Shown one piece after another: positions 1-33,790 of a stretch of DNA of 33,790 nucleotides. A program made the position numbers and the translations under genes. This DNA is from a virus: positions 1-33,790 of the IMG/VR virus record IMGVR_UViG_3300006033_000071; one strand, written 5' to 3'. The notes below the pieces were generated by a model. The model was not told where the DNA came from and ran no database searches. It worked only from the letters and a program-made list of their open reading frames with translations. Position 1 is the stretch's first letter. Every line of letters starts with the position of its first letter.

Positions 1-23
1 GGTAGGGGGCAAGGGGGCAGGGG
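1..23 (+). repeat. G-run repeat (right part of junction repeat array)
   Basis: Three runs of four or five G at 5-9, 13-17 and 20-23 are separated by only CAA and CA. The 12-mer TAGGGGGCAAGG (3-14) recurs exactly at the other end of the window (33778-33789), and a one-base variant starts at 33760. If the ends are joined, the array holds at least four consecutive long G-runs on the plus strand, enough for a G-quadruplex. It could be an origin, a packaging signal or a transcription barrier. The sequence does not decide between these. Confidence 0.6.
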
Positions 24-49
24 ACTTTCGATGATGCTGAACGCGATGG

Positions 50-78: not shown

Positions 79-96
79 TGAAAAGCCTATAGGCTT
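61..96. promoter_or_regulatory. operator-like repeats over the late promoter
   Basis: AAGCCTATAGGCTT (83-96) is a perfect 14-base palindrome at the predicted transcript start. A related element, AAGCCTTTAGG (61-71), lies between the -35 and -10 boxes. The two copies start 22 bases apart, about two helical turns, so a dimeric regulator could bind both on the same face of the DNA. The 61-residue HTH protein (31541) and the Arc-like protein (25553, minus) are the only visible candidates. Binding is inference. Confidence 0.5.
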
Positions 97-6663: not shown

Positions 6664-6834
6664 ATGCCATTGACAAAAGGTTATTCGAGCAAATCCATCG
6701 GCAAGAACATCAAAGCCGAGAAAAAAGCAGGCAAGCCTATGAAGCAAGCCGTGGCCATCGCATTGAATGTGGCAACCAAAGCAGCCAAGGCCGCAGGAAA
6801 GCCAAGCAAAGCGCCTAAGAAGGCCATGAAATGA
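6664..6834 (+). CDS. small basic Lys/Ala-rich phage protein (56 aa)
   Basis: This is a 56-residue, very basic protein starting MPLTKGYSSKSIGKNIKAEK. Residues 9-36 contain the pattern SKSIGKNIKAEKKAGKP and then KQAVAIALNVA, which I recall as a recurrent small protein in many tailed phages, often annotated only as hypothetical. The rest is Lys/Ala/Pro repeats. A strong ribosome site (AGGAGATC) precedes the ATG. Its stop overlaps the next start (ATGA, 6831-6834). The charge suggests nucleic-acid binding or a decoration role inside the head, but this is inference. Confidence 0.75.
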   Translation: MPLTKGYSSKSIGKNIKAEKKAGKPMKQAVAIALNVATKAAKAAGKPSKAPKKAMK

Positions 6835-31540: not shown

Positions 31541-31726
31541 ATGATGACCCTAGAGCAGATACGAGACGCGCTCTCCGACCGAATGCCAATGAAGGTGGCT
31601 GAGGCCACTGGTGTGCACTACAACACCATTCGCCAAGTGCGCGACAACCCAAATGCCAACCCAACTCACAAAGTCATGCTGGCGCTGTCAAACTACTTTG
31701 AAAGCCGCAAGGTGACGCATGGCTGA
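31541..31726 (+). CDS. small helix-turn-helix regulator (61 aa)
   Basis: This 61-residue Cro-sized protein has MMTLEQIRDALSDRMPMKVA, then EATGVHYNTIRQVRDNP, a good helix-turn-helix, and a third helix (KVMLALSNYFESR). I recall many phage proteins of the form TLEQIRDALxDR ... VAEATGxHxNTIRxIRDNP next to replication genes. AAAGGA lies before two adjacent ATGs (31541, 31544). It is the first gene of the short rightward transcript from the divergent promoters and overlaps the primase-helicase gene by eight bases. It probably controls the divergent promoters and perhaps the late operator. Confidence 0.82.
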   Translation: MMTLEQIRDALSDRMPMKVAEATGVHYNTIRQVRDNPNANPTHKVMLALSNYFESRKVTHG

Positions 31727-33734
31727 CCTCTCAAAAGTACTCGGTGGACCTTGGGCACCACCACCAGAAAAACTCGTCGCACCAGCAGAGAATCAATTGA
31801 TTGATGCAATGCGTGCAGCTGGCCTTGAGCCGCCAGACGAAGTCTTGATGGATGGAAAAATTCATCGATTCCGATCAGGCACCAAAGGCGCACCTGGCCA
31901 CGGTGACAAGCCAGGCTGGTATCTGGTGTTCGGTGATGGCATCCCAGCCGGTCGATTCGGATGCTGGCGAGCAGGCATGGAAGTGACATGGCGTGCAGAC
32001 GTAGGACGCAAACTCACGCAGACCGAGGAAATGTCACACGCCAAACGACTGGCCGAGGCCAAAGCTCTGCGTGACGCAGCACTCGAGCGCCAGCACCAAG
32101 TGGCCAGCGACACGGTCGAGAAAATCTGGACAGGCGCACAGGCGGCACTTCCAGATCATCCTTACTTGGCCAAGAAGGGAATTCAAACGCATGGTGCAAG
32201 GGCAACAGGAGACGGTCGACTGGTGCTGCCACTCTACGACGAAGACGGAACACTGGCCACCTTGCAGTACATCGACCACGAAGGCGGCAAGCTCTACCAT
32301 CCAGGCGGTCAGACTGGCGGCAAGTTCTGGATGGTAGGCTCACTAGATGAGACAGGCACACTGTTCGTGGCCGAGGGATTCGCAACGGCAGCCACCATCC
32401 ATGAAACCACCGACAGGCCAGTCGTGGTGGCATACAGCGCCAGCAATCTGGTGCCGGTCACTGGCACACTCAGAGAAATGTACGGAGCAACTCAAGACAT
32501 CGTGATCGTCGCAGACCATGACCAAAGCGGTGTTGGCCAACGCTACGCAGAGCAGGCCAGCGCCAAGTACGGTGCACGCATGGTGATGCCTCCGATACTC
32601 GGTGATGCCAACGATTATGCACAAGCTGGCCACGATCTGGCAGGCCTATTGATGCCACCGGCAGACGACTGGCTGATCCCAGCCGACGACTTCTGCGCAC
32701 AGCCCAGCCCCATCAGCTGGCTCGTCAAACGCTGGATTCAATCCCAAGCCCTAGTGATGGTCCACGGCCCAAGCGGTGGCGGCAAGACATTCGTGGTGCT
32801 CGACTGGTGCCTGCGCATGGCCAGCGGAACAGAAGACTGGGCAGGCCACAAAGTGCGTCAAGGCAACGTGGTCTATCTGGCCGGTGAAGGCCACCACGGT
32901 CTGCGAGGCAGGGTGGCAGCTTGGAAGCACCACCACAAAGCAGGCAAGCTGGCCATGTGGCTGTCCAAAGACGGCTGCGACCTGAACACCCCGACCGGTT
33001 ATCTCAAAGTGGTCGAGCAAGTCAGGATGCTGAAAGACAGACCCAGCGTGATCGTTGTCGACACCCTGCACCGATTCCTCTCAGGCGATGAAAACTCAGC
33101 TCAAGATGCCAAGACCATGCTGGACGCATGCAACGCACTCATGCAGGAATTCAACTGCTCGGTGATCTTGGTGCACCACACAGGTGTGTCAGACGAAGCC
33201 CAGCACCGCGCTCGAGGCTCAAGCGCATGGCGAGGTGCTCTGGACATCGAGATCAGCATCGTGCCAGGCAAAGAAGGCGTGCCCATGCAGATCGTGCAGC
33301 GCAAGTCCAAAGATGCAGAACTGGCCGAGACCATCCACGTCGAGCTGCAACAAGTGGCCATCCCTGGCTGGCGCGATGAAGACAACCAGCAAGTGACTAG
33401 CGCTGTGATCGTCCAAACTGAAGCACCGACAGCCCCGAAAAAAGAGTCGAAACTGGACGCGCATCGCAAAACATTCGAGAACGCATGGTGGGGAACAGGC
33501 GCTGAAATACGCGAGGGTTTACCCTATATTAGCAGGTCGGCACTTAAAGACAAGCTGGCAGCTGATGGCAGAAAACCACGCACGATCGAGAACGATCTGA
33601 GCGCAGCCTACCCAGAAAAATTGATCGGTGCACTCATCCTGTCCGAGATCATCAGCCCACTTGAACACGGCTGGTTGGTGATTGACGATGTCCAATCGAG
33701 TGCCATGATGATGCGAAAAGGTGGCCAAGAATGA
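31719..33734 (+). CDS. Toprim primase-helicase (RepA/DnaB-like ATPase)
   Basis: This 671-residue protein has an N-terminal region (about 1-140, with HRFRSGTKGAPGHGDKPGWY) resembling the start of phage bifunctional primases. The Toprim core shows VAEG (E219) and VADHD (D266, D268). The C-terminal RecA-like ATPase has Walker A GPSGGGKT (350-357) and Walker B VIVVDTL (444-450), with LVHHTG further on. The last 90 residues or so are probably a winged helix. It should prime and unwind phage DNA for the host polymerase, since no DNA polymerase is encoded. The gene ends two bases before the junction C/G-run array. Confidence 0.9.
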   Translation: MADLSKVLGGPWAPPPEKLVAPAENQLIDAMRAAGLEPPDEVLMDGKIHRFRSGTKGAPGHGDKPGWYLVFGDGIPAGRFGCWRAGMEVTWRADVGRKLTQTEEMSHAKRLAEAKALRDAALERQHQVASDTVEKIWTGAQAALPDHPYLAKKGIQTHGARATGDGRLVLPLYDEDGTLATLQYIDHEGGKLYHPGGQTGGKFWMVGSLDETGTLFVAEGFATAATIHETTDRPVVVAYSASNLVPVTGTLREMYGATQDIVIVADHDQSGVGQRYAEQASAKYGARMVMPPILGDANDYAQAGHDLAGLLMPPADDWLIPADDFCAQPSPISWLVKRWIQSQALVMVHGPSGGGKTFVVLDWCLRMASGTEDWAGHKVRQGNVVYLAGEGHHGLRGRVAAWKHHHKAGKLAMWLSKDGCDLNTPTGYLKVVEQVRMLKDRPSVIVVDTLHRFLSGDENSAQDAKTMLDACNALMQEFNCSVILVHHTGVSDEAQHRARGSSAWRGALDIEISIVPGKEGVPMQIVQRKSKDAELAETIHVELQQVAIPGWRDEDNQQVTSAVIVQTEAPTAPKKESKLDAHRKTFENAWWGTGAEIREGLPYISRSALKDKLAADGRKPRTIENDLSAAYPEKLIGALILSEIISPLEHGWLVIDDVQSSAMMMRKGGQE

Positions 33735-33736
33735 TT

Positions 33737-33784
33737 CCCCCTAGCCCCCTGAATCCCCCTAGGGGGCAAATCAGGGTTAGGGGG
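33737..33784. repeat. concentric C-run/G-run dyad at the genome junction
   Basis: The outer arms CCCCCTAGCCCCCTGA (33737-33752) and TCAGGGTTAGGGGG (33771-33784) are nearly complementary (one GT pair, a two-base bulge). The inner 12-mer CCCCCTAGGGGG (33755-33766) is a perfect palindrome. Inner and outer dyads share the same centre (33760.5), so they form one long hairpin or cruciform. It begins three bases after the primase stop and runs into the G-repeats at 1-23. No T-run follows, so it is not a standard terminator. A replication origin is the most attractive reading, but unproven. Confidence 0.65.
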
Positions 33785-33790
33785 CAAGGC

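Follow-up and report, generated by a model that had tools for sequence, protein, structure and literature searches.

What function might be served by the runs of C and G that crowd the two ends of a 33,790-nucleotide stretch of viral DNA (IMG/VR record IMGVR_UViG_3300006033_000071; the whole stretch is hereafter the window), directly 3' of a primase-helicase gene? A preliminary description, made from the letters alone, had seen in these runs a concentric palindrome of up to 48 bases around a perfect 12-base centre, and had considered an origin with iterons, a G-quadruplex switch or a transcription barrier. Comparison with relatives strongly supports the first of these readings, and the palindrome appears to be one half of the site at which an uncultured phage probably starts its replication. 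The features concerned are the following.

33737..33785, no strand: left palindromic word array, found with the same layout and other words in relatives; its words are CCCCCTA (33737-33743), CCCCCT (33745-33750), CCCCCTA (33755-33761), AGGGGGC (33761-33767) and AGGGGGC (33779-33785)
33786..33790, + strand: start of the spacer, whose remainder the window, stopping at base 33790, lacks
1..37, + strand: descending arm of the right hairpin, with AGGGGGC at 4-10 and 12-18, a partial AGGGGA at 19-24 and then the outer stem ACTTTCGATGATGC
31719..33734, + strand: primase-helicase of 671 aa (PHROG DNA primase; Pfam and PDB matches), proposed origin-binding initiator
33450..33722, + strand: C-terminal winged-helix domain, residues 578-668 (AlphaFold2; covaries with word class), proposed reader of the word
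33576..33599, + strand: recognition helix as predicted for residues 620-627, among them residue 625, which switches between Q and V in relatives

The G/C-run element of the window

The 12-base palindrome is present as described (CCCCCTAGGGGG, 33755-33766), and so is the repeat in one direction, TAGGGGGCAA, which occurs on one strand at 33760, 33778 and 3 and has no further copy in the window. The runs composing the concentric structure were likewise confirmed in position, with C-runs starting at 33737, 33745 and 33755 and G-runs at 33762, 33780, 5 and 13, but the significance attached to their symmetry was not: a window of 33.8 kb is expected to contain about 0.7 centres at which 16 of 24 positions are symmetric, and two were seen, and perfect palindromes of 12 nt number six in the window (8.4 expected). 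The 48-base symmetry, being at chance level, was rejected as evidence by itself. Folding of the window fragment alone was no better than that of its shuffles (z -0.46). The real anomaly is the clustering, as seven of the ten G/C runs of at least 5 in the window lie at its two ends. A perfect palindrome of 14 nt (AAGCCTATAGGCTT, window 83-96) was also observed shortly 3' of a TATAGT promoter-like hexamer and is a possible operator.

The record is listed as linear in IMG/VR, and the direct joining of its ends on which the preliminary description had relied is contradicted by 55 identical nucleotides, ATCGAGAAAGACCCCGATAAGCCCCCTGCCCTCCTACCCCCTTTCTATAGGAAGG, which two contigs (L002 and L004) carry between the equivalents of bases 33790 and 1, at 93-98% identity to the window on both sides of the insert. 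These 55 nt comprise the rest of the spacer and, from a second, larger hairpin, the ascending arm with the tip; the descending arm of that hairpin is the start of the window. The full element of 148 nt, as taken from L002, consists of the left palindromic array and this longer right hairpin, and it folds with a z of -5.2. Most likely, the assembly of the window broke inside the hairpin. Several assemblies stop at this hairpin's tip or close to it (the window at 33790/1, L036 and L539), which suggests that the hairpin blocks assembly or sequencing. In L539 (contig 3300007722_000579), a class-A element is found at position 6667 and no primase in the 6.6 kb upstream; a relic of the primase 3' end is retained, from which the winged-helix part is deleted, and the contig ends near the hairpin tip. 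This locus is possibly a deletion relic, an origin borrowed by a satellite or phage, or a chimera.

Word arrays 3' of the primase-helicase gene in relatives

Searches with the primases of the window, a class-D contig, Salicola phage CGphi29, Idiomarinaceae phage 1N2-2 and phage MW202867 led to 219 non-redundant loci; the bacterial genomes searched contributed one contig only. Within 240 nt 3' of the primase-helicase stop codon, 187 of the 219 loci carry one 6-mer 5-12 times, compared with a repeat number of nearly always 2-4 in shuffles of the same 240 nt, and the remaining 32 have no 6-mer repeated at least five times after the gene. The word is AGGGGGC in the window and GGTAAC, GGAAC, GGGTCA, GGGACA, GGTACA, GGTTCA, GGGTAC, GTGGAC or others elsewhere; it varies among loci, and within a locus all copies change together. 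The preliminary description had proposed to look in related phages for an equivalent structure in the equivalent position; location and arrays were indeed found there, with the words altered in concert. Other features are independent of class: a hairpin tipped CTTTAG, CTATAG or similar, present in 112 of 183 loci versus 0.4% of shuffles, a GGGCAAA-like spacer motif, a CGATG after the right array, and DnaA boxes. Exact DnaA boxes (TTATCCACA) occur at 55-fold the density found elsewhere, and 85 of 183 loci have them; no exact box is present in the window or its nearest contigs. GC skew, with a cumulative minimum near 32-33.5 kb, is weakly consistent with an origin, and an Rfam search gave no match.

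Two groups of loci depart from this pattern. In L161-L200, the primase has VMRDYAVANGISNF or a similar sequence as its C-terminus, and a gene comes next instead of a word array, which indicates an origin located elsewhere or of a different kind. In L228-L231 and L253-L256, the C-terminal tails are apparently non-homologous to the winged helix, yet arrays follow (GGGTACA, GGGGGTCT, GTTAG); here the type of reader domain may itself have been replaced.

The primase-helicase and its C-terminal domain

Pfam assigned Toprim_3 to residues 215-303 and AAA_25 to residues 321-491 of the primase-helicase, with no match to D5, DUF927 or RepA_N, and by phmmer residues 323-491 matched RSF1010 RepA (1g8y, E 2.4e-6) as the closest helicase in the PDB. 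For the C-terminal domain, an AlphaFold2 model was obtained with a mean pLDDT of 81.5 (mbc0736e4d231), and a winged helix was predicted for two classes, the readers of GTAAC and of GGAAC. A Pfam search with the 112-aa C-terminal segment gave no match, and neither the PDB by sequence nor Foldseek by fold returned a significant solved relative of the domain, so that DNA binding is argued from the type of fold and from covariation. Among phage records the domain occurs only in these primases, and a search of plasmids for its relatives found none. We propose from model and alignments that this domain is the DNA-binding reader of the word.

Covariation of the word with the C-terminal domain

Per alignment column, residue and word class are associated by 0.81 bits on average across residues 601-630, compared with about 0.1 in the core, and the association peaks at 618-619 and 624-628. 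On a tree of the core, at least 21 changes of word class are required, versus three on the tree of residues 600-655, three being the minimum for the four classes compared. As judged from these alignments, the word follows only the C-terminal domain of the primase. Two pairs of loci illustrate how this comes about. L002 (AGGGGG) and L012 (GGAAC) have cores that are 99.5% identical and C-terminal domains that are 31% identical, and the identity of their DNA falls over domain and element and regains about 94% from 500 nt downstream; the difference between them has the appearance of a bounded cassette of domain plus element. Between L064 (GGTAAC) and L069 (GGAAC), most differences fall into two patches apart from each other, one at codons 625 and 631-632 and the other in the word arrays; the intervening DNA, including the stretch with DnaA boxes, and the flanks are nearly identical. 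Exactly two alignment columns, 625 (Q or V) and 632, split all readers of GTAAC from those of GGAAC without overlap.

The word could also be predicted from the domain. When the nearest neighbour was chosen by domain among loci with cores at most 85% identical, its word was right in 136/150 cases, as against 16/118 for the nearest core with a different domain and 21/184 for random partners. In a held-out set of new loci fetched afterwards, to which the rule was applied unchanged, all 17 words were right at a domain identity of at least 70% (6/17 by core, 3/17 by random partner). Below 70% the prediction mostly failed, as would be expected if specificity has moved on.

Since the domain adjoins the element, recombination links the two and accounts for part of the covariation, and the strongest alternative builds on this. 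It takes the arrays as operators, or as the regulatory region of a separate transcription regulator, with the covariation arising from mere linkage to the adjoining 3' end of the primase gene. The joint exchange of the adjacent domain and element in L002/L012 would suit such a reading, as would the small gene for an HTH regulator 5' of the primase (window 31541-31726) and the promoter-like sequence 3' of the element. However, the tree of this regulator requires 21 class changes versus four for the primase domain over the same rows, and the regulator was rejected as reader of the word. In L064/L069, reader codons and arrays were altered with the DNA between them nearly unchanged, which together with the many independent switches makes linkage alone unlikely; the class signal is highest at the predicted recognition helix, only two columns separate two readers, and DnaA boxes are unexpected at an operator. 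We regard the operator reading as improbable. The HTH-like regulator itself occurs as two alleles of about 35% identity, which are swapped independently of word class and differ even between near-identical primases such as those of L002 and L012.

The other readings are weaker still. A packaging (pac/cos) site could be imagined about 550 bp 5' of the small terminase gene, given that terminase genes lie 3' of the element in the window and, in phage 1N2-2, after a MazG-like gene. The class of the word does not track TerS, though, whose tree requires eight changes versus two for the primase domain, and in CGphi29, Alteromonas phage XX1924 and MW202867 genes other than terminase follow the element, which makes packaging very improbable. 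Hardly more can be said for a G-quadruplex switch: class A does have a series of G-runs on the + strand, but such runs are confined to classes of the AGGGGGC type, and the element persists with GGTAAC, GGAAC and GGGTCA words in relatives that lack the series. Because the primase cores of these relatives are nearly identical, the G-runs are best seen as the appearance of one word class. A role of the hairpin as transcription terminator or barrier, at the boundary of the primase and late genes, is just as hard to credit. The strong G/C-rich hairpin of the complete element between gene blocks would speak for it, but no T-run follows the stem and neither the concerted change of word and primase domain nor the DnaA boxes are explained by a hairpin; a secondary role as terminator is possible.

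Comparison with known initiator-origin systems

In phage P4, the alpha protein, which acts with ori and crr, is primase and helicase at once and also recognises the origin; its DNA-binding domain is C-terminal. The present protein would be similar in having all three functions on one chain, as far as the general description of P4 goes; by that description P4 alpha is set apart by other primase and helicase families and by its distant crr, compared with TOPRIM and AAA_25 by Pfam here. At RSF1010, oriV consists of iterons and hairpin priming sites, and helicase, primase and iteron binder (RepA, RepB' and RepC) are separate proteins, the primase being non-TOPRIM. The hexameric helicase of the RepA family (match to 1g8y) is shared with this plasmid, whereas primase, helicase and proposed reader form a single protein of 671 aa here. 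With theta origins of the iteron type the element has in common the arrays of one repeated word, to which an initiator would bind.

SaPI Rep and SCCmec Cch2 are helicases with a C-terminal DNA-binding domain and a short-iteron origin directly 3' of the gene, and Cch2 requires 5-nt AAGTG words (PMC7581432). The short-repeat arrays directly 3' of the helicase gene in the 187 loci correspond to this arrangement, and so would the C-terminal domain if, as its covariation leads us to propose, it sets origin specificity. However, the SaPI/SCCmec helicases belong to DUF927 or D5/Primase_Cterm and the SaPI primases to the AEP family, whereas our loci combine a TOPRIM primase and an RSF1010-RepA-like helicase in one protein; unlike SaPI/SCCmec, the system sits in the phages themselves and has many interchangeable word classes. 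In PLEs, satellites of Vibrio cholerae, the DNA-binding domain of RepA_N covaries with the origin on an otherwise conserved protein, and the pair has been swapped repeatedly; cognate pairing has been proved, and an origin-directed nuclease may select for the swaps (PMC8263062). The covariation and the repeated swapping on a conserved protein are alike, but PLEs use an N-terminal RepA_N, iterons of about 30 bp and two modules in five PLEs, compared with a C-terminal winged helix, words of 5-7 nt and at least 12 word classes here. As the domain was found only in these primases among phage records, no Odn-like nuclease sharing it was seen. The system works like the Rep-ori of SaPI/SCCmec and the RepA-ori of PLEs and belongs to neither. 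Phage lambda also has an initiator-iteron pair, but its origin lies inside gene O, its iterons, 19 bp long, are recognised through the amino-terminal half of O, and a host helicase is recruited; ectopic copies of the origin arrest the phage (PMC4488673). By analogy, such arrest is a possible pressure for word change. In the literature searched, the word diversity of this system was not found described, and two papers mentioning these phages describe no origin. Given this and the different protein architecture, we consider the system a variant of known initiator-origin systems.

Proposed mechanism and implications

Taken together, the element is very probably a replication origin whose words are read by the winged helix of the primase-helicase, the pair of domain and word being exchanged as a cassette or altered jointly; this view rests on sequence comparison and structure prediction. 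The origin would consist of two arrays of a 5-7 base word plus spacer just 3' of the gene for the TOPRIM primase-helicase, the left one palindromic and the right one carried by the arms of a hairpin whose tip is C-TTTA-G or a similar sequence. We infer that the C-terminal winged helix binds the arrays and so brings the protein's own helicase hexamers and primase to the origin, where the DNA would be melted, the helicase loaded and priming begun, and the origin would fire. Once exposed, the right hairpin might serve to signal priming, by analogy with RSF1010. In many relatives, host DnaA may assist via the adjacent DnaA boxes, which are not universal.

To judge from the loci compared, the matched pairs that would start replication in these phages, fitting like lock and key, seem to be exchanged again and again. 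One could speculate that the pairs are replication passwords under diversifying selection, and that repeated switching, even among near-identical relatives, evades origin-directed nucleases, satellites or decoy origins; we think this rather unlikely. If it were true, each pair of domain and word would define one replication compatibility group. The loci offer a natural series of matched initiator domains and origin words on a single protein scaffold. In one near-isogenic pair of the series, the word differs by one base and the protein by a few residues, above all Q625V. With this series, the reading of a 5-6 base word by a winged helix, the joint change of specificity in an initiator and a multi-copy origin with function kept, and the cause of frequent origin swaps in phages become testable, and likely origins with their initiators are now located in many uncultured phages.
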